From the NCBI GenBank assembly GCA_902762795.1, contig CACWPM010000007.1:1-64000 (forward strand): a stretch of DNA of 64,000 nucleotides. The letters are read 5' to 3'. The notes beneath the pieces were generated by a model. That model ran no database searches. It saw nothing but the letters and a program-made list of their open reading frames with translations, and had not been told where the DNA came from. The translations under genes were made by a program, and so were the position numbers. This document shows positions 457 to 61,015 of the stretch, in pieces. This DNA is from Fibrobacter succinogenes (GTDB lineage: Bacteria > Fibrobacterota > Fibrobacteria > Fibrobacterales > Fibrobacteraceae). Position 1 is the first letter of the stretch. Each line of letters opens with the position of its first letter.

Positions 457-490
457 TGTAATGACCTTTTAAAATTTTACGGCGTAAATT

Positions 491-530
491 TAGAAATTAG
501 AGTAGAGAGTAGAGACTAGAGGCGAGAGAA
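491..530. repeat. Heptad-repeat array, AGAGTAG/AGACTAG type, single arm
   Basis: Reading from 491 the sequence falls into 7-base steps: AGAAATT, AGAGTAG, AGAGTAG, AGACTAG, AGGCGAG, AGAATAT. No inverted second arm is seen before the next gene at 569. It belongs to the same AGACGAA-like family as the arrays at 5148, 41979, 57131 and 60620. Confidence 0.75.
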
Positions 531-568
531 TATTAATCTTATTGAATGTTTTTTAGTATTTTGCATCC

Positions 569-3245: not shown

Positions 3246-5159
3246 ATGATTATCGCAGAATTTGATGTTGTTGTCGTCGGTGGAGGTCACGCCGGAATTG
3301 AAGCTACGCATGCCGCATGGAAAATAGGCGTTAAAACCGCAATGCTCACGATGGATTTGAATGCTATCGGCAGGATGTCGTGCAACCCGGCAGTCGGTGG
3401 CGTTGCGAAAGGTCAGATTGTCCGCGATATCGATGCGCTTGGCGGCCTCATGGGGCTTTTGACCGACAAGGCGGGCATCCAGTTCCGTATGCTGAACATG
3501 AGCAAGGGGCCCGCTGTTTGGGGACCGCGTGCGCAGTGCGATATGAAATATTACAGCGAAATCGCCCGCGAAACGATGGAAAGTTTGCCGGGACTCACGC
3601 TAATCCAAGGTGAACTTGCTGCGTTTGAACGCATGAACGACGGACGCTTGGAACTTACGCTTTTGAATGGCGACCGCTATATCACGCGTGCGATTGTGGT
3701 GACAAGCGGAACGTTTCTTGCCTCCAAGATGTTCACCGGGCTTGAAACAAGCATCGGTGGGCGAGTGGGCGAACCAAGTGCGGATAAGCTCTCTGAATGC
3801 TTGGCGAAGAATGGAATACGCTTGCGCCGCCTGAAAACGGGAACGCCGAGCCGCTTGGATCCGGATTCTATCGACTTCAACGAATGCGATGTGCAGCATG
3901 GCGACGAATATCCGTGGCCGATGAGTGACCGTCATTTGGCTGAAACGGTTCCCGGCCGTGACGAAAATTATTTCTGGGGAGACCCGATCAATAAGTTTAT
4001 CCGCAACGATTGCGTTTGCTGGATTACGCGCACGAACCTCAAAACGCACGATATTTTGCGCAGTGGCTTCAAGGACAGTCCGATGTTCAGCGGCCGTATT
4101 CACGGCAAGGGCCCGCGCTACTGCCCCAGTATCGAAGATAAGATCAACCGCTTTGGCGACCGCGACGGGCATCAACTGTTTCTGGAACCGGAACAAGCTG
4201 ACATCGGGCGTGTTTACATCAATGGCTTTAGTTCCAGCTTGCCTGCTGACATCCAGCTTGCCGCCATCCACACAATTCCTGGCCTTACCCGCGCGAAAGT
4301 GCTCCAGATCGGTTATGCTGTGGAATACGATTCTGTCGATGCCACGCAGCTTTACCCGACGTTTGAGTGCAAGAATGTACCCGGCCTCTATTTTGCCGGT
4401 CAAGTGTGCGGCACGAGCGGTTACGAAGAAGCCGCCGGTCAAGGCCTTATGGCGGGCATCAACGCAGCGCTCAAGGTCAAGGGCGAAGAACCGTTCATTC
4501 TCGGGCGTTCCGAAAGCTATCTCGGCGTGATGGTCGATGACCTCGTGAATATCCTGCTTGACGAACCATACCGTATGTTTACCAGCCGTGCCGAATACCG
4601 CTTGTTCCTCCGCAGTGACAATGCCGAAATGCGCCTCAAGGAAAAAGCCCGCAAGATTGGCATGATCAGCGACCGCGATTGGGAAAACTGGACTCGTCGC
4701 CGTGATCTCATGGCTAATCTCAAAACACAATTTGCAGAAACATCCGCTACGCCAGAAGATGCGAATGTCATTCTGGAAGCGGGCGGACAGGCACTTGCCT
4801 CGGAACGTACCCGCTGGATTAACGTGCTCCGCCGTCCGGGAATAGACCCGGAGACGTTCTTCAGGGTGGCTGCTCCTGATGCCAAAATCACGCGCCGTGA
4901 TCAATGGTATATGTATGCCGAAGAGCTCTATGCCGGATTTTTCGACCGTCAGGAACGTGAAATCGATGATCAAAAGAAGATGGAAAGGGTGAAGCTTTCT
5001 CCAGATTTTGATTACATGTCCATCACTGCAATTAGCATTGAAAGCCGCCAGCGTTTGAACGCCCACAAGCCGCTCACGCTTGGGCAGGCAAGCCGCATTC
5101 CCGGAGTGCGCCCCGCCGACATCACAGTCCTCGCGCATTGGCTGGAATCTAGAGACTAG
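3246..5159 (+). CDS. mnmG: tRNA uridine-5-carboxymethylaminomethyl modification enzyme MnmG (GidA)
   Basis: The 637 residues match the family length of about 620-640. The N-terminal FAD-binding loop is VVVGGGHAGIEATHAA (residues 6-21), followed by the MnmG signatures SCNPAVGGVAKGQIVRDIDA and GPAVWGPRAQCD. Later come LKTGTPSRL and CGTSGYEEAAGQGLMAG (the C-terminal FAD motif). With MnmE this enzyme installs cmnm5U at the wobble position of certain tRNAs. The last codons (LESRD and TAG) lie inside a heptad-repeat array that starts at 5148, so the natural tail of the protein has been replaced or extended by repeat DNA. The long reverse-strand frame over 3600-5138 is a shadow. Confidence 0.97.
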   Translation: MIIAEFDVVVVGGGHAGIEATHAAWKIGVKTAMLTMDLNAIGRMSCNPAVGGVAKGQIVRDIDALGGLMGLLTDKAGIQFRMLNMSKGPAVWGPRAQCDMKYYSEIARETMESLPGLTLIQGELAAFERMNDGRLELTLLNGDRYITRAIVVTSGTFLASKMFTGLETSIGGRVGEPSADKLSECLAKNGIRLRRLKTGTPSRLDPDSIDFNECDVQHGDEYPWPMSDRHLAETVPGRDENYFWGDPINKFIRNDCVCWITRTNLKTHDILRSGFKDSPMFSGRIHGKGPRYCPSIEDKINRFGDRDGHQLFLEPEQADIGRVYINGFSSSLPADIQLAAIHTIPGLTRAKVLQIGYAVEYDSVDATQLYPTFECKNVPGLYFAGQVCGTSGYEEAAGQGLMAGINAALKVKGEEPFILGRSESYLGVMVDDLVNILLDEPYRMFTSRAEYRLFLRSDNAEMRLKEKARKIGMISDRDWENWTRRRDLMANLKTQFAETSATPEDANVILEAGGQALASERTRWINVLRRPGIDPETFFRVAAPDAKITRRDQWYMYAEELYAGFFDRQEREIDDQKKMERVKLSPDFDYMSITAISIESRQRLNAHKPLTLGQASRIPGVRPADITVLAHWLESRD

Positions 5160-5262
5160 ACGAGAGAACGGGCTTACGGCCCTACAGACGAGAGAGTAAT
5201 AATGGCACTTCGCGCATGAATAAATAAAATTCTCTCATCTCTCGTCTTTCGTCTCTCGTCTA
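5148..5262. repeat. Heptad-repeat inverted pair, AGACGAG type, overlapping the mnmG stop
   Basis: The left arm (5148-5194) contains AGAGACTAGACGAGAG and AGACGAGAGAG, with a small hairpin (GGGCTTACGGCCC) inside it. The right arm (5231-5262) is the inverse, CTCTCATCTCTCGTC followed by TTTCGTCTCTCGTC. Steps of 7 bases are regular in both arms. The mnmG stop codon TAG is part of the left arm. Confidence 0.8.
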
Positions 5263-5339
5263 ACCCCTCTCTTGCATTTTCCCAAATTTTTACTATTTTT
5301 GGGCGCGTCAATTCTAACAATTTTCCAAGAGGTATATAT

Positions 5340-5890: not shown

Positions 5891-5993
5891 AGATTGGATT
5901 GCCCGCTTGATGACTGAAAGAAACGCTTCTACTCATGGCAGAAAGCCTTATCCTAACTTGCCAAATACCCCTCCAATAGTTAATTTTATCGTG

Positions 5994-6075
5994 TTTACGG
6001 GAGCTCGTAGAACGGGCTGAGAGGAAGTTGAAAACTTCGACCGAACCTGATTTGGATAATGCCAACGTAGGGAGG
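5994..6075 (+). promoter_or_regulatory. TPP (thiamine pyrophosphate) riboswitch
   Basis: The conserved thi-box elements are all present. ACGGGAGCTCG is followed by GGGCTGAGAGG (6014-6024), a variable hairpin (GAAGTTGAAAACTTC), then GAACCTGATTTGGATAATGC and CAACGTAGGGA. The 3' end of the aptamer runs straight into GGAGG (6071-6075), the Shine-Dalgarno of thiS, so ligand binding probably hides the ribosome site (translational control). No terminator hairpin is visible between aptamer and start. Confidence 0.95.
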
Positions 6076-6080
6076 TTCTT

Positions 6081-6287
6081 TTGAACTCAAATCCAGTCAA
6101 AATCAACGGTGAAAACGTCGCGGCTGCAGGCATGACCATAGCCGAATATTTAGCGTCCGCGAATTACGATACAAAGCGCATCGCCGTTGAACGCAACTTG
6201 GAAATCGTCCCTAAAGCAAAGTACGCCGAGGTCGTTCTCGAAGCGGGGGATGTCGTCGAAGTTGTGAACTTTGTCGGGGGCGGGTGA
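6081..6287 (+). CDS. thiS: Sulfur carrier protein ThiS
   Basis: The 68-residue protein has a ubiquitin-like fold pattern (MTIAEYLAS, IAVERNLEIVPKAKYAE, EAGDVVEVVNFVGGG) and ends in the Gly-Gly needed for adenylation and thiocarboxylation. ThiS delivers sulfur for the thiazole ring of thiamine. The start is TTG at 6081, five bases after a perfect GGAGG that belongs to the riboswitch's 3' edge; no ATG lies nearby in frame. It overlaps thiF by one to four bases, which points to translational coupling. Confidence 0.95.
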   Translation: MNSNPVKINGENVAAAGMTIAEYLASANYDTKRIAVERNLEIVPKAKYAEVVLEAGDVVEVVNFVGGG

Positions 6288-6947: not shown

Positions 6948-7718
6948 ATGAATTCTGACAAACTTGTTATTGGCGGTCATGAATTTGATTCTCGTTTTAT
7001 TCTCGGTTCTGGAAAGTATTCCCTCAAGCTCATTGAAGCTGCGGTTAAGGATGCTGGCGCTCAGATTGTAACGCTTGCCGTTCGTCGTGCAAATACGAAG
7101 GAACACGAAAACATCCTCGACTACATCCCGAAAAACGTCACGCTATTGCCGAACACGTCGGGCGCCCGCAATGCCGAAGAAGCGGTCCGTATTGCAAGAC
7201 TTTCCCGTGAACTCGGTTGCGGCGACTTCGTGAAAATTGAAATCATGCGCGATTCCAAGTACTTGCTCCCGGACAATGCCGAAACCATCAAGGCAACCGA
7301 AACGCTTGCGAAGGAAGGCTTTGTGGTGATGCCGTACATGTATCCGGATCTGAACGTGGCTCGCGATCTCGTGAATGCGGGGGCTGCCGCTGTGATGCCG
7401 CTTGCATCGCCGATTGGTTCGAACAAGGGACTTTGCACGAAAGACTTTATCCAGATTTTGATTGACGAAATTGAACTCCCGATTATCGTGGATGCGGGCA
7501 TCGGAAAACCGTCCGAAGCTTGTGCCGCCATGGAAATGGGCGCTGCCGCTATTATGGCAAACACCGCTCTTGCAACGGCTGGCGATCTCACACAAATGGC
7601 AACCGCATTCAAGCTGGCGATTGAAGCAGGCCGCAAGGCTTACCTCGCTGGGCTTGGTCGTGTGCTTTCCCGTGGAGCATCCGCCTCTGACCCGCTTACA
7701 GGATTCTTGAGGGACTAG
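6948..7718 (+). CDS. thiG: Thiazole synthase ThiG
   Basis: The 256-residue TIM-barrel enzyme starts with [20 protein letters not shown], the ThiG signature. The Schiff-base lysine region lies in [11 protein letters not shown] and the phosphate-binding loops in [12 protein letters not shown] and [11 protein letters not shown], followed by [12 protein letters not shown]. It condenses 1-deoxyxylulose 5-phosphate, dehydroglycine and ThiS thiocarboxylate to the thiamine thiazole. ATG at 6948 is preferred over ATG at 6942 because AAAGGA (6935-6940) is then 7 bases away instead of 1. The stop codon touches the first heptads of the repeat at 7716. Confidence 0.96.
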
Positions 7719-7806
7719 GATGGGGGTTTTGGGCTATGGGCTCGGACCTTGCGGTCCTTTGGGCAGTGAGCAATAACGATTACTTTTTTGCTCATAGCTC
7801 AAAAGC
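7716..7806. repeat. Heptad-repeat inverted pair, GGGCTAT type, inside the thi cluster
   Basis: The left arm reads GGGTTTT, GGGCTAT, GGGCTCG. The right arm (7790-7806) reads GCTCATA, GCTCAAA, the inverse of the left with G-U pairs. The loop contains the hairpin GGACCTTGCGGTCC. It lies between thiG and thiH, so it is probably transcribed in the thi mRNA. Confidence 0.7.
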
Positions 7807-9381: not shown

Positions 9382-10164
9382 TTATTTCATTTTCTTCGAG
9401 CAACCTTTGGGTCCGTAAGTCGAGAAGCAGGTGCCGTTGTCAGACATATATGCCGTGTTCCAAGAGCCTTTGTTCGGAAGCAAGAATACTTCAACGGAAT
9501 AGCCCGGATTGTCGGGATCAGACCAACGAATGTTTACGGTATAACGCGTATTTTCTTTAAGTTTACCGAAATTTAACGCCTTGCTTATGAACATCGCATT
9601 TTTAGGTGCGGTGCGGTAGTCGGTTCCACCAGAGGCGTTTTTGTATTCTTTTGAAGTGTAGGTGTCGCCACCGGATTTATAGGCGTTTCCGCCTTTGAGT
9701 CTTGCCGCGATAATATCGGCTACACCGTCAAAGTTTGCGTCTTTGAGTGCTGTATAGAATGTACCGCTAGAGCCAATCATTTCACAAACGTTATATTTTG
9801 TATTGATTTTACTATGGTTACCCTGGACATTTACAGTAAGAGCACTATGCAATTCTATCACGAACAAGGCTGCTCCACCATCTGATGCAAGTCCTTCGGC
9901 CAATTTGTTCCTAAATGTTTTTTTAATGGTTTCATTTTGGGCCTTTACTGGCGAATAACTATTCATTGCATCAGAATCCTCGATAAGCGCTAAATTGATA
10001 ACGTTTCTGAGGTCATAAAGTTTCATGAGGTCAATTTTCTCGCGTGTCTTTTCACCAACACCGAAAAATTTTGGCATGGCTACAGAGGAGAGGATGCCCA
10101 TAATAGCGATAACTACCATAAGCTCCATGAGAGTAATACCTCTCTTTGAATTTACAGTTTTCAT
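9382..10164 (-). CDS. Type IV pilin-like protein / pseudopilin
   Basis: The 260-residue protein begins with a short positive leader (MKTVNSKRG) and a prepilin peptidase site, G followed by ITLMELMVVIAIMGILSS, with Glu at +5 of the mature protein. The hydrophobic helix is followed by a globular domain with two cysteine regions: VCEMIGSSGTFY, and GTCFSTYGPKGCSKK at the C-terminus, a possible disulfide loop. It is larger than minor pseudopilins and fits a major type IV pilin. Type IV pilins have been linked to cellulose adhesion in Fibrobacter (established knowledge; assignment here is inference). The Shine-Dalgarno AGGGAG precedes the start. It interrupts the thiamine genes on the opposite strand and has no pilus-assembly genes beside it. 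Confidence 0.9.
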   Translation of the reverse strand: MKTVNSKRGITLMELMVVIAIMGILSSVAMPKFFGVGEKTREKIDLMKLYDLRNVINLALIEDSDAMNSYSPVKAQNETIKKTFRNKLAEGLASDGGAALFVIELHSALTVNVQGNHSKINTKYNVCEMIGSSGTFYTALKDANFDGVADIIAARLKGGNAYKSGGDTYTSKEYKNASGGTDYRTAPKNAMFISKALNFGKLKENTRYTVNIRWSDPDNPGYSVEVFLLPNKGSWNTAYMSDNGTCFSTYGPKGCSKKMK

Positions 10165-10343
10165 AATATCGCTCCCTATGATGTTTCTTAGGATTGTGAT
10201 TCCTTTTTATGAAAAATAGATAATGTTTATAAGTCGTGTCACAATTACGCAATAAAAAAGTAATATTTGTGAGAAAACTCACGGTTTTAAGGCTTCAAGC
10301 TGCTCTATTCCAAAGCGGAATATTTTTTTCTACCTTTAAAATC

Positions 10344-10976
10344 ATGAAAAATATCGATACGACGCTCTATTTTATTACGGATAGTTCTTGTGTTCCGGCA
10401 GATCGTTTTTTACCCACTGTCGAGGCGTCTTGCAAGGGAGGCGCTTCGCTAATCCAGCTTCGTGAAAAGAATCGCTCGACACGAGAATATTTGGAACTTG
10501 CCTGGGCTACGCATGAAATCACCAAACATTATGGTATCCCGTTGATTATTGACGACCGTGTAGATGTGGCTTTGGCTGTCGGCGCTGAAGGCGTCCATGT
10601 TGGGCAGACGGACATGCCTGTAAAAATCGCGCGGCAGTTGATGGGTGCAGATAAAATAATTGGAGCGACGACGAAGACGGTTCCGCAAGCGCTTGAAGCG
10701 TATGAACAGGGCGCAGACTATCTGGGCGTTGGCGCCATTTATCCGACAACAACTAAAGTCGTTACTATTCTCACCAGCGTAGATACGCTGAAATCTATCG
10801 TGAAGGCTGTTCCAATCAAGGTCAATGCAATTGGCGGACTCAACAAGGATAACATTGATATTCTCAAGGGCTCCGGCATTTCGGGTATTTGTGCGGTTTC
10901 TGCAATCATGAAGGCCGCTGATCCGGAGCGTGCCACACGGGAATTGAAGCAAGCGTTTTTAGGTATTAGGGGTTAG
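10344..10976 (+). CDS. thiE: Thiamine-phosphate synthase ThiE
   Basis: The protein of about 210 residues shows ThiE signatures in order: LIQLREKN, IIDDRVDVALAVGAEGVHVG, QTDMP, IIGATTKT, GADYLGVGAIYPTTTK and VNAIGGLNKDNI. It joins HMP pyrophosphate and thiazole phosphate into thiamine phosphate. ATG at 10344 is chosen because the longer upstream frame to 10236 has no similarity to the family. There is no clear Shine-Dalgarno. The last residues (FLGIRG) and the stop TAG are encoded by a TAGGTNT heptad array. It completes thiazole-branch genes together with thiSFGH; thiC and thiD are not in the window. Confidence 0.94.
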   Translation: MKNIDTTLYFITDSSCVPADRFLPTVEASCKGGASLIQLREKNRSTREYLELAWATHEITKHYGIPLIIDDRVDVALAVGAEGVHVGQTDMPVKIARQLMGADKIIGATTKTVPQALEAYEQGADYLGVGAIYPTTTKVVTILTSVDTLKSIVKAVPIKVNAIGGLNKDNIDILKGSGISGICAVSAIMKAADPERATRELKQAFLGIRG

Positions 10977-11083
10977 GTAATAGGTTTTAGGCTAATAATC
11001 GTGGCTCTGCCACCCTATACCAATGCCCGAAGTGTATGATTCTTTTCCTAAAACCTAACACCTATAACCTGTAACCTAATTAT
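10957..11083. repeat. Heptad-repeat inverted pair, TAGGTNT type, overlapping the thiE stop
   Basis: The left arm (10957-10994) has TAGGTAT, TAGGGGT, TAGGTAA, TAGGTTT, TAGGCTA. The right arm (11047-11083) has the inverse CCTAAAA, CCTAACA, CCTATAA, CCTGTAA, CCTAAT. TAGG is constant and the other three bases vary, also between paired heptads. The loop holds GTGGCTCTGCCAC. This is the clearest example in the window. Confidence 0.88.
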
Positions 11084-11100
11084 TACTATCTTTTACCGCG

Positions 11101-21159: not shown

Positions 21160-21356
21160 TTAAGTTCCGAGTTCTAAGTTTTGAGTTACTAGAAAATGGC
21201 GCAGTCATCCTCGAACGAAGTGAGGGGATCCATACTGTTCTAATTTAGAACTTAGATCTTAGATAATGCTTTACTTCTAAGTTCTGAGTTACTAGTTATT
21301 AGGAACTTTCATATTAAAAATTCTAGTAACTATTAACTAGTATCTAGTAACTAAAT
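21160..21356. repeat. Nested heptad-repeat hairpins (AAGTTCT and CTAGTAA types) with a GTCATCC palindrome in the loop
   Basis: The first left arm AAGTTCC, GAGTTCT, AAGTTTT, GAGTTAC faces the right arm AGAACTT, AGATCTT, AGATAAT near 21246. Between them sits GTCATCCTCGAACG...GAGGGGATCC. A second pair follows: TTCTAAG, TTCTGAG, TTACTAG and, from 21324, CTAGTAA, CTATTAA, CTAGTAT, CTAGTAA. The palindromic family has landed in, or grown inside, the heptad loop. Confidence 0.8.
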
Positions 21357-21371
21357 TGTTATATTAGCATC

Positions 21372-27733: not shown

Positions 27734-27780
27734 TTTCTTTTATAAGCGGTCTGCGGACTTTCTCGAATTTGATGTAAACT

Positions 27781-27815
27781 ATTGGTTATTGCTGATTAAT
27801 GATCAATAACTAATA
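27781..27815. repeat. Short heptad palindrome, TTGGTTA type
   Basis: ATTGGTTATTG and CAATAACTAAT pair around a short loop. The steps GATTAAT, GATCAAT, AACTAAT show the 7-base period. Confidence 0.6.
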
Positions 27816-27857
27816 TTTTATTTATCACTTTCCTCTTTCTTTAAGTATATTAAAAGT

Positions 27858-29339: not shown

Positions 29340-29408
29340 CGTGGACGTGACACATGCCTATTGATGTTGTTCGAGGATAACGAAAACGGATGCTGTTCCC
29401 TCTTGCGT

Positions 29409-29440
29409 CCCTAAAAACTAATACCTAATCCCTATTTACC
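29409..29440. repeat. Heptad-repeat array, CTAATAC type, at the stop of the second Wzi-like gene
   Basis: CTAAAAA, CTAATAC, CTAATCC, CTATTTA, CC. On the reverse strand this is TAAATAG, GGATTAG, GTATTAG, and it begins with the stop codon TAA of the gene at 29436. Confidence 0.72.
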
Positions 29441-30866
29441 ATTGTACGCTGCCGGAGGCATAAGCGCGGTATCCTTCGTAATCCCCGAAGAACCTTGTAT
29501 AGCTCGTCCTGAAGCTAAACCAGTGCCACGGCTTAACACTTACCGTAAATCCAAGTTCCTTGTAACGGATGGTCGTTTCGTCATACAGAAATTTTTTGTC
29601 CATGGCGCTTTCGGGGGTGTGAAGGTCATTGATGCGCCCGCCGAAGGCCGTGTCTTTTGCGACAGCACCAAAGAAGAGTGTTGCCTTGACGAAGTTGTAT
29701 GTGGCCGTCAATTCGGTGTGGAGTTCTTGGCTGTTCGGGCCGAGGTCGCTGCCTAGGCTCTGGGCGTAGCTTGCATATGTGTAACCGCCCCCTTTGTGGT
29801 GCGTGTAAACCCAGGGCTCGATGTGCGTGTATTCGAACATCCAGTCGAGATTTACAGGACCGATTTCAATTTTGTCACGTGCGACGCCTACTGTAGCCGC
29901 CCACTTGTTACCCCACCAACTATCGTCAAACATGCTTGTCGGTGATTTCATGTCATCCCATAAAAGTTCCCCGTAAAATTCCCAGTTCGGGATTGTCTTT
30001 ACGCTCAAGTCGAATGCAAGCGAGATATTGTCCTGGTCCCCTTGCAAATGCTCTTGGAAAACGAAGGGAATGAACGGAATGGCATATGCCCATTCGAATT
30101 CGCGGCCAGTGCTATCGCCATCGGGGTTGGGGTTGGAGCTTGCCGCTTCAGTGGTGGTGCCGTAAAGCGAAGTTTCAGAAATACCGAGCGTGATATCTTT
30201 CGGGAGTTTCAGGTTGAGACGGTGTGCGTGAAAATACTTGCCCAAGTTCTTCTTTTCATAGAGCTTGGCGGCGTACTGTGTGTATTCAATAGGGCCAAGC
30301 GTGAACTGGTAGCCAAAAAAGGGCGTCGGCGCTGCGTCCGGGATACGGCTGGAACTGTCTTGCCAAGGACGGTAAATGTTCCGTTCGCCACGTAAAATCA
30401 CGTGGTTGCGTCGTGCAGGCCCCCATTCTAAAAAATCAAATCCAGCGAGGAGCTTTACAGGCTTTAGTTCATAGCTCACGTTAGCGGCAAATAAATCCCA
30501 CGTGCGTTTATTTTCACTTTGCTTGTTGAAGGGGATGCCTTCGTCCGGATTGTACATGTTGAAGTTTATAAATCTGTTTGTATAATCCGTGCTGATTTTG
30601 GCGCGCGTGTCGAATAAGAATTTGTCTGTGAATTTTCCGCTTGCAAAAAGCCGAACCGACATGGAATTATCGTAATGCGTTTTCGCATTCGTGAGATTCG
30701 TGATGGCGACGGAGTCCATCAACTGTGCGTTGATATGGAGTTCCTTGTCATGCGCGGAATCCGAAAACGTGATGTGGTGTGGCATGTCGACCGGGTGTGC
30801 CGAGTAGGCTAGGGCGGTTCCAAAGATAAAGCTGAGGGCGAAGGCCGATTTTTGCCACGGTTGCAT
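29436..30866 (-). CDS. Wzi-like outer-membrane beta-barrel protein, copy 2
   Basis: The protein of about 476 residues starts at the ATG complementary to 30864-30866, giving a signal peptide (AFALSFIFGTALAYSA). The longer frame to 30932 lies in the upstream gene. The barrel shows alternating strands and ends SGSVQW. It shares blocks with the protein at 11944: EWGPARRNHVILRG, TLGPIEYTQYAAKL, YGELLWDDMKSP, GNKWAATVG, and EPWVYTHH followed by SLGSDLGPNSQ. The two are therefore diverged paralogs. Here the partner genes are a MauE-like membrane protein 2 bp upstream and a tiny membrane protein, not polysaccharide genes. The stop codon opens a heptad array. Confidence 0.78.
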   Translation of the reverse strand: MQPWQKSAFALSFIFGTALAYSAHPVDMPHHITFSDSAHDKELHINAQLMDSVAITNLTNAKTHYDNSMSVRLFASGKFTDKFLFDTRAKISTDYTNRFINFNMYNPDEGIPFNKQSENKRTWDLFAANVSYELKPVKLLAGFDFLEWGPARRNHVILRGERNIYRPWQDSSSRIPDAAPTPFFGYQFTLGPIEYTQYAAKLYEKKNLGKYFHAHRLNLKLPKDITLGISETSLYGTTTEAASSNPNPDGDSTGREFEWAYAIPFIPFVFQEHLQGDQDNISLAFDLSVKTIPNWEFYGELLWDDMKSPTSMFDDSWWGNKWAATVGVARDKIEIGPVNLDWMFEYTHIEPWVYTHHKGGGYTYASYAQSLGSDLGPNSQELHTELTATYNFVKATLFFGAVAKDTAFGGRINDLHTPESAMDKKFLYDETTIRYKELGFTVSVKPWHWFSFRTSYTRFFGDYEGYRAYASGSVQW

Positions 30867-34466: not shown

Positions 34467-34483
34467 GTGCGCAAATATAGTAT

Positions 34484-34519
34484 TTTAGAACTTGGAGCTT
34501 AGAGCTTAGAACTCAGAGA
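34484..34519. repeat. Heptad-repeat array, TTAGAAC/TTAGAGC type, single arm
   Basis: TTAGAAC, TTGGAGC, TTAGAGC, TTAGAAC, TCAGAG: five regular 7-base steps upstream of metG. Confidence 0.78.
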
Positions 34520-34547
34520 TTTATTGTAATAAGACAAAAGATAGGAC

Positions 34548-34600: not shown

Positions 34601-35704
34601 TTATTTCTTATACCACTTAGGGAGTTTTCCTTCTTTTTCCAAAAGTGATTTTTTGAACATATCTGTTTTATCTGTTTTCTTGGCAACATTCCAATTGCTA
34701 ATGTCTTCGTTGAATTGAGACTTTTCAAACATTCCGGCCATGTTATTGACTTTGGACACATCCCAATTGCTGATGTCACCGTTGAATTCGGAGCCTGCAA
34801 ACATTTCCACCATGATCTTGACTTTGGACACATCCCACTTGCTGATATCTCCGTTGAATTTGGAGCCTGCAAACATTTCCAACATGTCTTGAACATGTGA
34901 TACATCCCATTTGCTGATGTCCCCGCTGAATTGTGAACCCGCAAACATTTGCATCATCTCCTTGACTTTGGACACATTCCATTTGCTGATATCGCCGTTA
35001 AATTGAGAACGTGAAAACAATCTGACCATGTTATTGACTTTGGATACATCCCAATTGCTAATATCGCCATTGAATTGAGAATCTTCAAACATTGCTAGCA
35101 TCTCTCGAACATGCGACACATCCCAGTTGCTGATGTTTCCGTTGAATTTGGAATTATTAAACATGAAGCTCATGTCTTGAACACGGGAAACGTTCCATTG
35201 GCTGATGTCGCCAGTAAATTGAGAACCAGCAAACATTTGTGTCATGTCCTTGACTTTGGACACGTTCCATTTGCTGATATCTCCATTGAATTTGGAATCC
35301 GAAAAAATGAAGCTCATGTCCTGAACATGCGATACATCCCAATTGCTGATGTCACCGTTGAATTCGGATTCCGAAAACATGAAGTTCATGTCTTGAACAT
35401 GTGACACATCCCAATTGCTGATATCACCGTTGAATTTTGATTCTGAAAACATGAAGTGCATGTCTTGAACATGCGATACATCCCATTTGCTGATATCTCC
35501 GTTGAACATGCTTTTCTCAAATAAATGACTCATGTCGGTTACTTGAGAAACGTCGATATCATTCAGATCGCAATTGTTGCCGTTGGTCTTGATACGGTTT
35601 TTGATGATATTTATCAAATTCTTTTTGTCTTTTGCGATCGTAATGGTTTGGCCCGCGGCATTTTTTATCTTCTTCTTTTGAACAATAACTTTTTCTTCCG
35701 ACAT
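34601..35704 (-). CDS. 24-residue solenoid repeat protein (DUF285/BspA-like), no signal peptide
   Basis: The 367-residue protein has a basic N-terminus (KVIVQKKKIKNAAGQTITIA) and then twelve 24-residue repeats of the form FNGDISNWDVSHVQDMSFMF followed by four residues. This is the DUF285-type repeat known from BspA-like surface proteins and Mycoplasma lipoproteins. Here no signal peptide, lipobox or sorting tail is visible, so the product is probably cytoplasmic or leaves by an unusual route. The 72-bp units are very similar at the DNA level, which favours copy-number change. The Shine-Dalgarno AAGGA is well placed. Proposed roles for such solenoids are protein binding or adhesion; nothing here decides. 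Confidence 0.85.
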   Translation of the reverse strand: MSEEKVIVQKKKIKNAAGQTITIAKDKKNLINIIKNRIKTNGNNCDLNDIDVSQVTDMSHLFEKSMFNGDISKWDVSHVQDMHFMFSESKFNGDISNWDVSHVQDMNFMFSESEFNGDISNWDVSHVQDMSFIFSDSKFNGDISKWNVSKVKDMTQMFAGSQFTGDISQWNVSRVQDMSFMFNNSKFNGNISNWDVSHVREMLAMFEDSQFNGDISNWDVSKVNNMVRLFSRSQFNGDISKWNVSKVKEMMQMFAGSQFSGDISKWDVSHVQDMLEMFAGSKFNGDISKWDVSKVKIMVEMFAGSEFNGDISNWDVSKVNNMAGMFEKSQFNEDISNWNVAKKTDKTDMFKKSLLEKEGKLPKWYKK

Positions 35705-36487: not shown

Positions 36488-36510
36488 GTCAACAGAGATA
36501 CTTTTTGAAG

Positions 36511-36611
36511 GTTTATAGGTTGTAGGCTACAGGTTGTAGGTTAGTTAGGCGGCTTTGCCTCGATTATAAAAATCCTAACACCTAAAACCTATCGCCTAAT
36601 ACCTAGAACTA
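36511..36611. repeat. Heptad-repeat inverted pair, TAGGTNT type, overlapping the amtB stop
   Basis: The left arm is TATAGGT, TGTAGGC, TACAGGT, TGTAGGT, TAGTTAGG. The loop is GGCGGCTTTGCCTCG. The right arm is CCTAACA, CCTAAAA, CCTATCG, CCTAATA, CCTAGAA, and it ends at the amtB stop codon (reverse TAG). Confidence 0.85.
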
Positions 36612-37883: not shown

Positions 37884-37911
37884 TGGTTATTTTCCTTTAT
37901 TAAAAACATGA

Positions 37912-38031
37912 TGGGTTTTAGGTGTTAGGTTGTAGGTTTTAGGAAAAGTTTCACGCACTTCGTGCGTTTGTGATAGGGCGGCGTAGCCGCGTTTTTTTAC
38001 CTAATCCCTATCACCCTATAACCTGAACCCT
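37912..38031. repeat. Heptad-repeat inverted pair, GGTTTTA type, between glnK and amtB
   Basis: The left arm is GGTTTTA, GGTGTTA, GGTTGTA, GGTTTTA, GG. The right arm is CCTAATC, CCTATCA, CCCTATA, ACCTGAA, CCC. The loop has two tight hairpins, CGCACTTCGTGCG and GCGGCGTAGCCGC. It lies inside the predicted glnK-amtB transcript and could affect relative expression. Confidence 0.85.
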
Positions 38032-41965: not shown

Positions 41966-42661
41966 ATGGCTAAAAACTTAGACGAAAGACAAGAGACGAA
42001 AGACGAAAGTAATTCTTCTTCGGAACAGGCAAAATTTGAACAGGATGTGCTGAAAGCCGCCCAGGACGCAATGAATCTCGAAGCCGAGGCGAAAAAAGAC
42101 GAGAGTGTCTCGAATGAAGAAGCCGCCGACAAGCCCGCTGACGCCGAAAGCCAAAATGCCGAAGCGCCAAAGGCCGAAGAAAAAGCCGCAGATCAGCCCG
42201 CTGCACCTTCCGCCGAAGAAATTTTGAAACAGCAGCTCGCCGATGCCAACGACCGCAACTTGCGCTTGATGGCTGAATTCGAAAACTTCCGCCGCCGTAA
42301 CGCCAAGGAACAGCTCGAACTCATCGAAACGGCAAACGGCAAGCTTCTCGAAAAATTCTCTGAAGTCCAGGATAATTTCGAGCGTGCTTTTGCTGCCGAG
42401 AACAAGGCGAAAAATCTTGAAGCCTTCGAAAAAGGAATGCAGATGATCTACAACCAGTTCGCCAAGGTTCTCACGGACGCAGGCCTTGAACAGATTGATC
42501 CGACGGGCAAGGAATTCGACCCGAACCTCCACGAAGCATTGATGCAGCAGCCCTCCGATACCATTCCCGAAGGTCATGTTGTCACTGTTTTCCAGAAAGG
42601 TTACAAGCTCAAGAATAAAATCTTGAAGACTGCTAAGGTCATCGTTTCCTCTGGGAAATAA
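41966..42661 (+). CDS. grpE: GrpE, nucleotide exchange factor of DnaK, with repeat-derived N-terminus
   Basis: The 231-residue protein has an acidic, low-complexity N-terminal half (to about residue 80). The GrpE core follows: long helix NDRNLRLMAEFENFRRRNAKE, then QVDNF-like VQDNFERAF, and the beta domain with FDPNLHEALMQ, GHVVTVFQKGYKLKNKIL and AKVIVS. GrpE releases ADP from DnaK. Residues 5-15 (LDERQETKDES) are encoded by four AGACGAA heptads of the intergenic repeat type, so repeat DNA has become coding. The Shine-Dalgarno is AAAGGA. dnaK and dnaJ are not adjacent. Two terminators follow. Confidence 0.95.
   Translation: MAKNLDERQETKDESNSSSEQAKFEQDVLKAAQDAMNLEAEAKKDESVSNEEAADKPADAESQNAEAPKAEEKAADQPAAPSAEEILKQQLADANDRNLRLMAEFENFRRRNAKEQLELIETANGKLLEKFSEVQDNFERAFAAENKAKNLEAFEKGMQMIYNQFAKVLTDAGLEQIDPTGKEFDPNLHEALMQQPSDTIPEGHVVTVFQKGYKLKNKILKTAKVIVSSGK
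41979..42010 (+). repeat. Heptad-repeat array, AGACGAA type, inside the grpE coding region
   Basis: From 41979: AGACGAA is preceded by T, and the steps AGACGAA, AGACAAG, AGACGAA, AGACGAA, AGT follow. The frame is kept through a 7-base period, so successive heptads are read in different frames. Confidence 0.8.
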
Positions 42662-47321: not shown

Positions 47322-48131
47322 CTACTTAGATCTCTGCGATTTTTCGGCTTTCGGCGTTTCAGCCTGTTCAGCATTCTGCGCCGCCTGCTTTGCAGCCTTT
47401 TCTGCAGCGTGCTCCAAGCGCGCGGGCTTCCCCGCCAAATTGCGCAAGAGACCAAAAAGTGCCGAAAGTTCGTTACGCGTCGGGTGTAAGCGCTGCAGAA
47501 GCGTGTTGAGGAAGCTATCGCGCCAAGCTTGATCGTGGTATTGACCCGTCAAGTAACGGTCGAGGAATTTTTTGAATCCATCGATTTGTTGAATGGTTGC
47601 AGGGCCCGTTTCGGCAACGCCTCGCGTTGTGCGCTTCGCGCGGCCCTCGCCGTTCGCGAGTGCCCCGGAACGGCAAAGTTCATACAAGCTAATCGAAACC
47701 GCTTGGCCAAGGTTCAAGCTCATGAGTCCTGGCACCGGAATTTCGCACTGGTACGTGCAAGCGTTCACTTCTTCAAGCGAAAGCCCGCAAGATTCACGAC
47801 CGAACACAAGCGCAATCGTTCCGTCTTCCGGAAGCATATCAGACAAATTCTGCACCATCGTATGCTTGATGGAACTTGCAAAAATACGGCGGCTGTAGGC
47901 AACCGCGCAAGAGCAATCGCCAATGGCATCTTCGAACTTGTGGACAACCTTAGCATTGTCCAGAATGTCATGGCTATTCGCTGCCGTATGGTAAGATTTG
48001 TCCAAGACTTTGTCGCGCTTCGGGTAGATTATGTAAAGTTCCGGCAACGCATAGCAATGCATCGCTCGTGCAACAAATCCCACATTGTGCGGGTGTTCCG
48101 GTTCAACAAGTACAATTCTAAATTTACGCAT
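47322..48131 (-). CDS. TrmJ/SpoU-type RNA 2'-O-methyltransferase
   Basis: The 269 residues contain the SPOUT motifs: LVEPEHPHNVGFVARAMHCY at the N-terminus, ALVFGRESCGLSLEEV in the middle and the knot end PGLMSLNLGQAVSISLYEL. A helical extension follows, with an Ala/Glu/Lys-rich tail (EKAAKQAAQNAEQAETPKAE). TrmJ methylates tRNA position 32; without the tail the fit is also to other SpoU family members. The start codon is immediately preceded, without any Shine-Dalgarno, by a TAGGTNT heptad array. Confidence 0.88.
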   Translation of the reverse strand: MRKFRIVLVEPEHPHNVGFVARAMHCYALPELYIIYPKRDKVLDKSYHTAANSHDILDNAKVVHKFEDAIGDCSCAVAYSRRIFASSIKHTMVQNLSDMLPEDGTIALVFGRESCGLSLEEVNACTYQCEIPVPGLMSLNLGQAVSISLYELCRSGALANGEGRAKRTTRGVAETGPATIQQIDGFKKFLDRYLTGQYHDQAWRDSFLNTLLQRLHPTRNELSALFGLLRNLAGKPARLEHAAEKAAKQAAQNAEQAETPKAEKSQRSK

Positions 48132-48168
48132 GGTTAGGTAGTAGGTTATAGGTTTTAGGGATTAGGAC
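48132..48168. repeat. Heptad-repeat array, GGTTATA/GGTTTTA type, at the trmJ start
   Basis: From 48133: TTAGGTA, GTAGGTT, ATAGGTT, TTAGGGA, TTAGGA. On the trmJ strand it runs into the ATG with only CC between. Confidence 0.8.
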
Positions 48169-48248
48169 AACTTTTTGCAGTATAGCATGATTAGACAACG
48201 GTGTCATCCTGAGCGAAACGCGTTAAGCGTGGAGTCGAAGGATCTCAA

Positions 48249-48640: not shown

Positions 48641-48778
48641 AAGTTGCGGATGCCAAAGGCATCAACTTGCCAAGTATCGTATATCGGCTACGAACCTTCG
48701 GTTCGGAGTTTACCCTGAGCTTGTCGAATGGGCTCAGGATGACACATAAAAAATGGACAATCTGTTTACATTCAGGAT

Positions 48779-51045: not shown

Positions 51046-51103
51046 TTAGGTAACAGGAATTTACAAAAATATTTCGCTTTCAACTGTAACACAAGAACGA
51101 AAT

Positions 51104-51262
51104 AGTGGTTAGTAAACAGTGGTTTGTATACAGGGATGTAAAAGGAACGTTCTTATGGCAATCTTAACTAAGCAATAAACTTCGCTGGATCCCTCGTCGC
51201 TTCTCGGGATGACGTTTCCTTTTTACTTGTACTTCCTACAGCTTGCTAATCACTAATCATTG
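51104..51262. repeat. Heptad-repeat inverted pair, AGTGGTT/ACTAATC type, between lpxD and lpxC
   Basis: The left arm is AGTGGTT, AGTAAAC, AGTGGTT, TGTATAC, AG. The right arm (51244-51262) is GCTAATC, ACTAATC, ATTG. Between them lies GGATCCCTCGTCGCTTCTCG followed by GGATGAC (51187-51214), a copy of the palindromic family. Confidence 0.6.
51187..51214. repeat. Palindromic intergenic repeat (GGATCC...GGATGAC) in a heptad loop
   Basis: GGATCCCTCG and CTCGGGATGAC enclose TCGCTT. As at 21203 the palindrome sits between two heptad arms. Confidence 0.55.
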
Positions 51263-56561: not shown

Positions 56562-56603
56562 AAAAGGAGATGCCGCCCCGGAATAAGCGCAAACACAAGA
56601 AAT

Positions 56604-56664
56604 AATGGATTCCCATCCTAACGGTCGAGGATGACAAGGCTGGCTCAAGCCGGCATGACATCCA
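56604..56664. repeat. Palindromic intergenic repeat between convergent genes
   Basis: The ends AATGGAT and ATCCATT enclose CCCATCC...GAGGATGAC and the hairpin GGCTGGCTCAAGCCGGC. It fills the space between two convergent genes and may terminate both. Confidence 0.6.
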
Positions 56665-57096
56665 TTACTTGACCTGGAAACGGTCTTTGATTTCTTGAGG
56701 GATGGCGAACGGGCGGGCGCGTTTCATGTCCATCAAGACCCACTGCGTCTCGGATTCGAAAATAATTTTGCCATCAGAGATGCGTTCAAAGCGGCACTTG
56801 CGCACGCTCATCACCTTGCTGTAACTTGCAACCCACGTCGTTCCACGAACTTCATCGTCCAGGAATGCTTGATTCTTGTATTCCACAAACTGCGTGTGGA
56901 TCATCCAGCCGCATCCCAGCTGGTACATGACGTCCGTTGCACCGACTGAATCGGAATGAGCTATCGAAATATCCTGAACCCATTGTACCGCCCACACATT
57001 GTTCATGTGACGGTTTTCATCAATCATCTCGGGTGTTACCTTAAAAAGTTTCTCAAACTTCATCGGGTTTGCATTTTCTTCCATTACTACAGCCAT
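56665..57096 (-). CDS. Acyl-CoA/acyl-ACP thioesterase, 4HBT hot-dog family
   Basis: The 143 residues show the 4-hydroxybenzoyl-CoA thioesterase pattern: FKVTPEMIDENRHMNNVWAV, where the family has D-x-x-GH-x-NN-x-x-Y, then MIHTQFVEYKNQAFLDDEV and FESETQWVLMDMKRARPFAI. The usual Asp-to-His pair near the start is replaced by ENRHMNN. ATG follows a good GGAGG. It would hydrolyse an acyl thioester, which fits the neighbouring fatty aldehyde/alcohol genes, but it is on the opposite strand. Confidence 0.88.
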   Translation of the reverse strand: MAVVMEENANPMKFEKLFKVTPEMIDENRHMNNVWAVQWVQDISIAHSDSVGATDVMYQLGCGWMIHTQFVEYKNQAFLDDEVRGTTWVASYSKVMSVRKCRFERISDGKIIFESETQWVLMDMKRARPFAIPQEIKDRFQVK

Positions 57097-57130: not shown

Positions 57131-57252
57131 AATCTAGACGAAAGAACGCTTGCAATGCAAGCTAAAGACTGGAGACGAAAGAGTATTATTCGCAACAGTA
57201 ACCAAAACACTCTCAGCGACAAACCTGTGACTAATGACAATTGACTAACAAC
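57131..57252. repeat. Heptad-repeat arrays, AGACGAA type and TTGACTA type
   Basis: TCTAGACGAAAG, the hairpin GCTTGCAATGCAAGC, then AAAGACTGGAGACGAAAGAG; after 40 bp, GTGACTAATGACAATTGACTAAC. The two heptad types are next to each other and not inverted. Confidence 0.65.
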
Positions 57253-59762: not shown

Positions 59763-60656
59763 TTATTTTTTTACAGCTATCAGTACGACGGAGCCGAGGA
59801 TTAAGATAATCCCTGCAACGAGGCGTGTTGTGAGAGTTTCACCGAAAACGGTCACGCCAATAGCTACGGCTGTTACGGGTTCCAGTGCTCCAAGAATCGC
59901 AGTGGGCGTGGAGCCGATAATTTTCACTGCCTTGACCATGAAAATAAGCGAGAGCACTGTCGGTACAAAGCCAAGCATAAACCCCCAGCCCCACGAACTA
60001 GCCTGTATAAAAAGCGGCGGGAGGCCAGCGCCAAGTGTCACTGAATAAAGCAGCAAAAACACAAGGCAGAAGCAAATGGCGTAAAAAGTCATCTTCACGG
60101 AACCCATCTGCAAGTTGATACGGTTCGCCATTACCATGTAAATCGCATAGCTCAATGACGAGGCGAAAACGAGAGCAAGCCCGACCGTACTAAGCGAAAC
60201 TCCATCTCCGCCGCGATACAAGAGCGCAATACCCGCCATAGAAACCACGATAGAGGCAACTGTCCAAGCTTTTATTCTTTCCTTGAAGAATACCGCCATG
60301 AGCACCGAGACTTCAAGCGGGTACAGGAACAGGAGCGTCGAGGCAAGGCCTGCGTCCATGTACTTGAACGAGGCGTAATACGTAAGCGAACTCACTGCAA
60401 AGAGGAAACCGAAAGCGACAAGTGCGCGGAACTCGCGAAAAGAAATCTTGAAGTGCGAACCTTTCGCAAGCACAACCGCAAAAAGAAGAACCGCCGCCGT
60501 GAAAAAACGGTAAAAGAGAACCGTCTCGGGCGAGTAATTCTGTGCGTAAAGATGCAATGCTCCCAGTGGATTCGTTCCGTAGCAAATCGCGGAAAGAGCT
60601 GCGAGGGCGAAGCCTTTTAAAGATGAAAGACGAGAAACGGCAGACGAGAGAATCAT
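59763..60656 (-). CDS. EamA/DMT-family transporter with repeat-derived N-terminus
   Basis: The 297 residues have ten membrane helices in two EamA repeats: FALAALSAICYGTNPLGALH opens the first, and LALVFASSLSYAIYMVMAN opens the second. It ends ILGSVVLIAVKK. EamA proteins export amino acids or other metabolites; the substrate is not evident. The first twelve residues (MILSSAVSRLSS) are encoded by AGACGAA-type heptads (reverse TCTCGTC, TGCCGTT, TCTCGTC, TTTCATC), and no other start exists before the first helix. There is no clear Shine-Dalgarno. Confidence 0.9.
   Translation of the reverse strand: MILSSAVSRLSSLKGFALAALSAICYGTNPLGALHLYAQNYSPETVLFYRFFTAAVLLFAVVLAKGSHFKISFREFRALVAFGFLFAVSSLTYYASFKYMDAGLASTLLFLYPLEVSVLMAVFFKERIKAWTVASIVVSMAGIALLYRGGDGVSLSTVGLALVFASSLSYAIYMVMANRINLQMGSVKMTFYAICFCLVFLLLYSVTLGAGLPPLFIQASSWGWGFMLGFVPTVLSLIFMVKAVKIIGSTPTAILGALEPVTAVAIGVTVFGETLTTRLVAGIILILGSVVLIAVKK
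60620..60654. repeat. Heptad-repeat array, AAGACGA type, inside the eamA start
   Basis: Forward strand: AAGATGA, AAGACGA, GAAACGG, CAGACGA, GAGAATC, ending at the start codon. Confidence 0.78.
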
Positions 60657-60710: not shown

Positions 60711-60718
60711 ACTGCCAT

Positions 60719-61015
60719 CGTGAGCCACAAGCGGCACTGAGCAAACGTGCCGTGATGGCGAGAGCGAGGCGAAGAAGGAATTTTTCCATCTGCGATAGAG
60801 CCGAGCGGTCTAGAAATCGTGAGCCACAAGCGGCACTGAGTAAACGTGCCGTGATGACGAGAGCGAGGCGAAGAAGGAATTTTTCCATCTGCGATAGAGC
60901 CGAGCGGTCTAGAAATCGTGAGCCACAAGCGGCACTGAGTAAACGTGCCGTGGTGGCGAGAGCGAGGCGAAGAGGGAATTTTTCCATCAGCGATAGAGCC
61001 GAGCGGTCTATATAG
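60719..61015. repeat. Three tandem copies of a 99-bp unit touching the smc stop codon
   Basis: Units start at 60719, 60818 and 60917, each with CGTGAGCCACAAGCGGCACT and CGATAGAGCCGAGCGGTCTA. Copies 1 and 2 differ at only two bases, and copy 3 carries about eight further changes. GGCAC and GTGCC flank a short loop in every unit, so each can form a hairpin. The length is a multiple of three and the unit is open in several frames, but none looks like a protein. The smc stop TAG lies in the last bases of copy 3. Together with the palindrome at 60668, this fills the 351-bp gap between eamA and smc. Confidence 0.85.

Follow-up and report, generated by a model that had tools for sequence, protein, structure and literature searches.

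Degenerate heptanucleotide arrays of many families at shared intergenic sites in Fibrobacter genomes

Gene context and array loci in the window

The window, the whole 64-kb stretch of DNA analyzed here, derives from contig C7 of a draft genome of 3.93 Mb (G000). This genome is a succinogenes-like Fibrobacter, and the CoaX-like protein encoded in the window has 92-96% identity to its counterparts in F. succinogenes and allied rumen Fibrobacter metagenome-assembled genomes (MAGs). A thiamine gene cluster, comprising ThiG, a radical-SAM protein and ThiE, is headed by a TPP riboswitch (RF00059, 59.3 bits, at 5987-6090), the only Rfam match in the window. Arrays of tandem heptads sit between the genes of this cluster, at places where the relative G014 has a few bases only.

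The element at the site between thiE and the coaX-like gene (10955-11081) has five heptads in each arm, NNNTAGG on the left and CCTANNN on the right, with two hairpins between them. A first-pass annotation, made from the sequence alone, had described inverted arms around a small GC hairpin, and the anatomy at 10957-11083 agrees: a TAGG arm is followed by a pair of small GC hairpins and then by a CCTA arm. The thiE reading frame (10236-10976) ends inside the heptad array, so that the array supplies the thiE stop codon, and the last residues of ThiE are rewritten relative to array-free relatives. The array loci of the window are listed in Table 1; gene calls came from a simple hexamer model and give approximate start sites, and some array sites (e.g., 7716 and 46244) were called by eye.

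Table 1. Heptad arrays and associated hairpins in the 64-kb window
Feature	Coordinates	Strand	Detection	Remarks
TAGAGAC/AGACGAA-type array	483-537	+	lag scan	
AGACGAR array, G-rich arm	5148-5210	+	by eye	nested hairpin GGGC-TTAC-GCCC
TCTCTCG array	5224-5273	-	lag scan	C-rich arm of 5160 element
GGGCTAT-type array and hairpin	7716-7775	+	by eye	between ThiG and radical-SAM (ThiH-like) gene
G-rich NNNTAGG heptad arm	10955-10994	+		starts within thiE 3' end; provides thiE stop codon
Central hairpin A, GTGGC-TCT-GCCAC	11001-11013	+		compensatory stem changes between copies
Central hairpin B	11023-11037	+		16 double-sided changes, 4 stem pairs, 11 copies
C-rich CCTANNN heptad arm	11043-11081	-		adjoins presumed promoter of coaX-like gene
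Composite TTAGAAC and CTAGTAA arrays	21163-21362	.	lag scan	flank hairpin
TTGRCTA-type array	27773-27839	+	lag scan	
CCTAAAA-type array	29408-29447	-	lag scan	one arm
TTAGARC array	34474-34525	+	lag scan	one arm
TAGG arm	36508-36542	+	lag scan	paired with CCTA arm 36569-36610
CCTA arm	36569-36610	-	lag scan	partner of TAGG arm 36508-36542
TAGG arm	37904-37949	+	lag scan	two-hairpin centre on right side
AGACGAA array	41970-42015	+	lag scan	within grpE N-terminal coding region
TAGG array	48130-48171	+	lag scan	adjoins start codon of minus-strand SpoU methylase gene
AGTGGTT-type array	51100-51133	+		14-bp unit
AGACGAA array	57131-57185	+	by eye	nested hairpin
AGACGAA-type array	60616-60653	+	lag scan	over start of EamA transporter ORF

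Other repeats were also observed in the window. Three tandem 99-bp copies, 96% identical, occupy 60717-61010 at the start of a large minus-strand ORF (61008-63998) and are apparently a repeated start codon and leader region, and a protein of DUF285 repeats is encoded by 72-bp DNA repeats at 34604-35704. Dispersed hairpins of the form GTCATCCTGAGCGAA...GGATCC lie at 21200-21240, 48200-48245 and 56580-56670 and are sometimes the centre of heptad arms. At the place of the grpE array, the relative G001 has a single TTAGACGAA, as if it were a seed.

Abundance and specificity of the period-7 arrays

Thirteen runs with at least 19 of 28 matches at lag 7 were found in the window, as against none after order-2 Markov shuffling and 0-5 at other lags. 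Similarly, 464 kb of the window's genome contained 70 arrays of period 7 and only 1-11 at each of the other periods from 4 to 13; by extrapolation, the genome-wide total is about 600. The excess over shuffled sequence and over other periods rejects chance as the source of the arrays, whose mean length is 4.7 heptads.

These results bear out the exact 7-base periodicity reported in the first-pass annotation. The lag scan returned arrays at or near the positions that it gave (10954-11087, 36508-36610 and, in Table 1, the arrays beginning at 483, 5224, 21163, 27773, 34474, 37904, 41970, 48130 and 60616), weaker arrays were recognized by eye at 5148, 7716, 46244, 51104, 57131 and 57227, and one at 48775 was recovered by a more sensitive scan. 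The annotation had also placed the arrays between genes, which is true for most (60 of the 70 are intergenic) but not for those at 41979, in grpE, and 60620, at the start of the EamA-type transporter ORF. Every kind of gene pair is represented among the array-bearing spacers; a terminator role was rejected, as convergent gene pairs showed no enrichment for arrays.

Anatomy of the arms and their hairpins

Among arm pairs less than 130 bp apart, 33 had the G-rich arm on the left and the C-rich arm on the right and a single pair was reversed. The first-pass annotation had described many arrays as inverted arms around a hairpin; single arms are common, however, and the opposite arms of some elements belong to different families. 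Besides TAGG, the families, which were assigned using hand-made templates, include AGACGAR, TAGTCAW, GTAGRMR, TAGTGGT, TTAGARC, CTAGTAA and GGGGTWT, and these have their own centres or a single arm only.

TAGG elements at 11 loci in three genomes can be aligned over their full extent, in both orientations and with their asymmetric two-hairpin centre. Such whole-length alignment would be expected of non-autonomous mobile elements of the fold-back or MITE-like type, that is, a unit of about 127 bp inserted by a transposase for which the heptads are binding sites. The conserved polarity of the arms resembles terminal inverted repeats, and G014, L009 and L012 are empty at a site where the window's genome has about 95 bp extra. 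Against this, no autonomous partner was seen, as the 1.3 Mb sampled (about 450 kb from the window's genome and 859 kb from G004) contained no long dispersed repeat. Y1 transposases number only 0-2 per genome, are absent from the array-rich G006 and show no correlation with array abundance, on which ground a RAYT/REP system was also rejected. In addition, filled/empty pairs inspected by eye showed the loss of a few bases and no evident target duplication. The two arms of an element may differ in family, single arms are common, and loci do not have their heptad order in common. We consider mobile elements an unlikely source of the arrays.

The order of heptads in TAGG arms is close to that of random draws between loci, and the arms are thus not recent copies of one master; simple copying as the origin of arms at separate loci was rejected for the same reason. 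The earlier suggestion that arms are not kept identical is supported. A strong division of heptad positions into constant and variable ones, another feature of the first description, was rejected, since the variance (0.073) exceeded that of a uniform-mutation null (0.058) only slightly.

In hairpin B, both sides of the stem have changed in 16 cells, at four pairs, and the TAGG/CCTA pairs are nearly invariant. Single-strand folds of the arms were better than those of shuffled sequences, with z of about -3 to -7. On the G-rich strand, TAG is enriched about 3-fold and TAA (0.5) and TGA (0.3) are depleted. Insulation by stop codons (TAG in all frames by virtue of period 7) was rejected as the main cause of the arrays, because a need for stop codons would not deplete TAA and TGA while enriching TAG.

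Polarity relative to gene boundaries

The G-rich strand points away from the nearest gene boundary in a ratio of 52:10 in the window's genome and 78:19 in G004. The same polarity was found (43:5) in a group of species whose CoaX identity is 83-86% and whose heptads are in part different, and array-free control segments (87:85, 125:177 and 68:79) had no bias in that direction. This polarity is independent of the reading direction of the nearest gene, which argues for a cause at the DNA level. The same strand polarity has been described in words for the heptamers of Xanthomonas and Nostoc (PMC4692102).

The strong polarity, the good folding of the arms, the compensatory changes in hairpins and the TAG enrichment that is not a stop-codon effect could also indicate selected functional sites, in which TAG-core heptads would bind a DNA- or RNA-binding protein, or hairpins would act in mRNA ends, at slots with a regulatory function. 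However, a polarity that ignores gene direction is contrary to an RNA or promoter role, and no array matched Rfam above the gathering score.

Conserved sites with changing heptad families

The genomes compared are draft MAGs, and the statistics on array sites are drawn from samples of 464 kb (window's genome), 859 kb (G004) and 455 kb (G014). Over 156 gene pairs, with spacers of any length, arrays were present in both the window's genome and G004 at 23 sites, in the former only at 10, in the latter only at 13 and in neither at 110. G004 therefore has an array at 23 of the 33 array sites of the window's genome, vs. 13 of the 123 other sites (odds ratio 19, p=4e-11). The family at a shared site is, by contrast, random between the species: the dominant family agreed at 6/23 sites, for which the permutation mean was 4.6 (P=0.31).

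The thiE-coaX site is an example of this turnover. TAGG arrays occupy it in the window and at L010 and L013, TAGTCA arrays at L011 (G001) and in G004, TTAGTGG/GTAGG at L014-L016 and TTAGAGC at L055, and there is no array at L009, at L012 or in G014. An IS200-like Y1 transposase was observed beside a TAGG array upstream of thiE in G001 (L011; G001:C12:10089-10445). At several sites the left boundary is shared and the heptad that follows it differs: after GCAATTTTTA, one sequence continues as ATAGG and the other as GTCATTGG, and in a second example CAAATTTAG is followed by TAAATAGTGG in one and by AAAAAAGACGAG in the other.

Tight gene spacing may partly force this pattern. The empty G014 spacers at array sites had a median length of 26 bp, vs. 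67 bp elsewhere (p=0.11), and are often so short that they would force the same insertion point. This would suit neutral microsatellites of the ordinary kind, with slots in common only because few intergenic positions tolerate insertion. Tight gene junctions, though, are expected to be less tolerant, and neutral repeats leave the polarity, the inverted pairing and the TAG core without explanation; as a full account of the arrays, they appear improbable.

Arrays at orthologous sites are not uniformly identical and ancient, and their presence differs among relatives. G014 has an array at only 1 of 16 sites, and in a nine-locus tree (midpoint-rooted, with mixed interior support) this array-poor genome is the sister of the array-rich G001, with G004 outside, implying that arrays come or go quickly. 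Whole-genome counts of TAGG x4 were 152 in the window's genome, 178 in G001, 268 in G006 and 324 in G016, as against 13 in G004 and 7 in G014, and about ten further genomes had 0; reversed-pattern controls were near 0. Counts of AGACGAR and TAGTCA also differ among the genomes, and Fibrobacter species have their own heptad dialects.

The conservation of the slots is favorable to the functional sites considered above. The absence of nearly all arrays from G014, the sister of G001, and the free swapping of families at shared sites are less so. Selection for a protein-binding role is the strongest rival to our preferred explanation, and we judge functional selection of this kind to be rather unlikely. 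A trans-acting activity that measures 7 nt and lays TAG-core heptads inward from gene boundaries at fixed slots, in a species-specific dialect, and that was lost in, e.g., G014, is distinctly doubtful.

Growth of the arrays by whole heptads

Orthologous arrays of relatives were compared in 36 pairs. Length was equal in 20 pairs and differed by at least 5 bp in 16; 12 of these 16 differences were exact multiples of 7. The steps were 7, 14, 21, 63, 70, 77 or 84 bp, and indels in a period-7 context in other close pairs were 7, 14 and 21 bp. Changes of length by whole heptads point to unit-wise slippage or unequal exchange. The first-pass annotation had proposed one generating process of strict period 7 for the many heptad families, through slippage or template-directed repeat addition; the single process and the slippage are both supported. 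Within arrays, heptad identity drops mildly with distance, from 0.74 to about 0.60-0.64.

Template-directed addition has fared differently. A reverse transcriptase or telomerase-like enzyme acting at broken DNA ends, which are then joined, would be consistent with the species-specific dialects and with the polarity, as the G-rich strand would extend the 3' end at both sides of a break. No match to the RVT_1 domain was present in the window's genome or in the array-rich G001 or G004, however, and in the one orthologous case inspected the extra heptads were interior to the array and not at the loop end. Furthermore, the TAGG centre is a homologous structure and not random filler. This mechanism is largely refuted already and we regard it as highly improbable.

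Other candidates for the growth of arrays were also rejected. MutS is present in 20/20 genomes, excluding its loss as the cause of slippage, and SbcD was found in array-rich genomes too. The signal for growth from a flanking seed was weak and ambiguous (percentile 0.63, p=0.01). In favor of the explanation that we prefer (see Discussion) is a 31-bp hairpin-plus-heptad unit which is present in G004 between direct repeats and absent in G014 (site C7:135167).

Exchange between species

Several arrays are more similar between species than the sequences around them. At the thiE-coaX site, the arrays of the window and L013 have 96% identity (flanks 79/84%) and those of G001 and G004 have 95% (flanks 78/82%), and the array at 7718 is identical to that of L015 over 233 bp (100%; flanks 92/90%). 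The species groupings disagree among three array sites within 6 kb, from which it follows that vertical descent alone is insufficient. Nevertheless, interspecies exchange that is specific to arrays was rejected, since array-free spacers show similar exchange: those at 1720-1814 and 10128-10344, compared with G014/G001, have 93-95% identity and flanks of 74-86%. These patterns of identity suggest that short-tract recombination is frequent among rumen Fibrobacter, and exchange at array-free spacers implies a general trait of the species, with arrays carried along.

Discussion

With about even confidence, we interpret the Fibrobacter arrays as fast-evolving heptad repeats in fixed intergenic slots, maintained by 7-bp slippage together with recombinational replacement. 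A slot, once opened, would persist, and its contents would be overwritten repeatedly by array sequence copied from other loci or from the DNA of other strains, possibly where matching heptads permit template switching or recombination over short tracts. The newcomer array would then be amplified by slippage. The inverted arms and small hairpins may be products of fold-back template switching on single-stranded DNA, and copying of this type would hold stems complementary without selection, such that the arrays would require no host function. Slippage alone does not predict the TAG core common to many families, the polarity at gene boundaries or the near-random order of TAGG heptads. No donor locus was identified for any array replacement. 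One published guess for the unit of 7, as cited in PMC4692102, is the polymerase footprint.

The period-7 excess, intergenic bias, whole-unit variation and G-rich polarity of the arrays place them in the class of intergenic heptanucleotide simple sequence repeats. The first-pass annotation knew of no match to this form; intergenic heptamer arrays have in fact been reported in Beggiatoa, cyanobacteria, Bacteroidetes and Xanthomonas (PMC4679880, PMC4692102), although the Fibrobacter form differs in detail. The closest parallels are the GGGAATC/GGGGAYT heptamers of Xanthomonas and Nostoc (Rehm et al. 2015, PMC4692102), which are likewise of period 7, intergenic and near gene ends, occur in some cases as inverted pairs, and recur between the same genes of related species, where their length and sequence vary. 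Those arrays consist of one near-perfect G-quadruplex heptad, whereas each Fibrobacter genome has at least eight degenerate families, swapped at shared sites, and hairpin centres. The TAACTGA repeats of Beggiatoaceae, Cyanobacteria and Bacteroidetes (MacGregor 2015, PMC4679880), for which a translational role was suggested, are also intergenic, often abut start codons and have a phylogenetic scatter without explanation, but they comprise one invariant heptamer in one orientation with practically no inverted pairs in Beggiatoa. In the SPADE survey (PMC6344855), heptamers, the same prime period as here, ranked first in abundance among the intergenic tandem repeats of a wide range of prokaryotes, and its authors had no clear clue to their function; the comparison is at survey level, and the text makes no mention of Fibrobacter or of orthologous-site analysis.

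The STRR heptamers of cyanobacteria such as Calothrix, which receive a mention in PMC4692102, are tandem heptanucleotides, as in Fibrobacter, with, to our knowledge, fewer and less degenerate families. REP, BIME and REPIN sequences are dispersed intergenic hairpins with inverted pairs, as are the Fibrobacter elements, but we know of no heptad arrays in REPs, and the Fibrobacter arrays have no RAYT-like association. No description of heptad arrays in Fibrobacter was found in the literature searched (supplementary files excepted). What is new here is that the arrays are degenerate and of many families, that they have hairpin centres and species dialects, and that families are swapped at fixed slots.

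Bacterial 7-base repeats are known to be abundant but have not been accounted for, and the Fibrobacter arrays make them easier to test. Fibrobacter provides a natural experiment, since arrays number in the hundreds per genome, sister species may be rich or poor in them, the same slots are refilled with different heptads and a polarity rule applies; slippage, recombination, transposition or selection can thus be tested directly. The arrays also serve as a warning that in Fibrobacter very fast turnover affects spacers and 5' leaders and extends even to the ends of genes, those of the thiamine cluster included.
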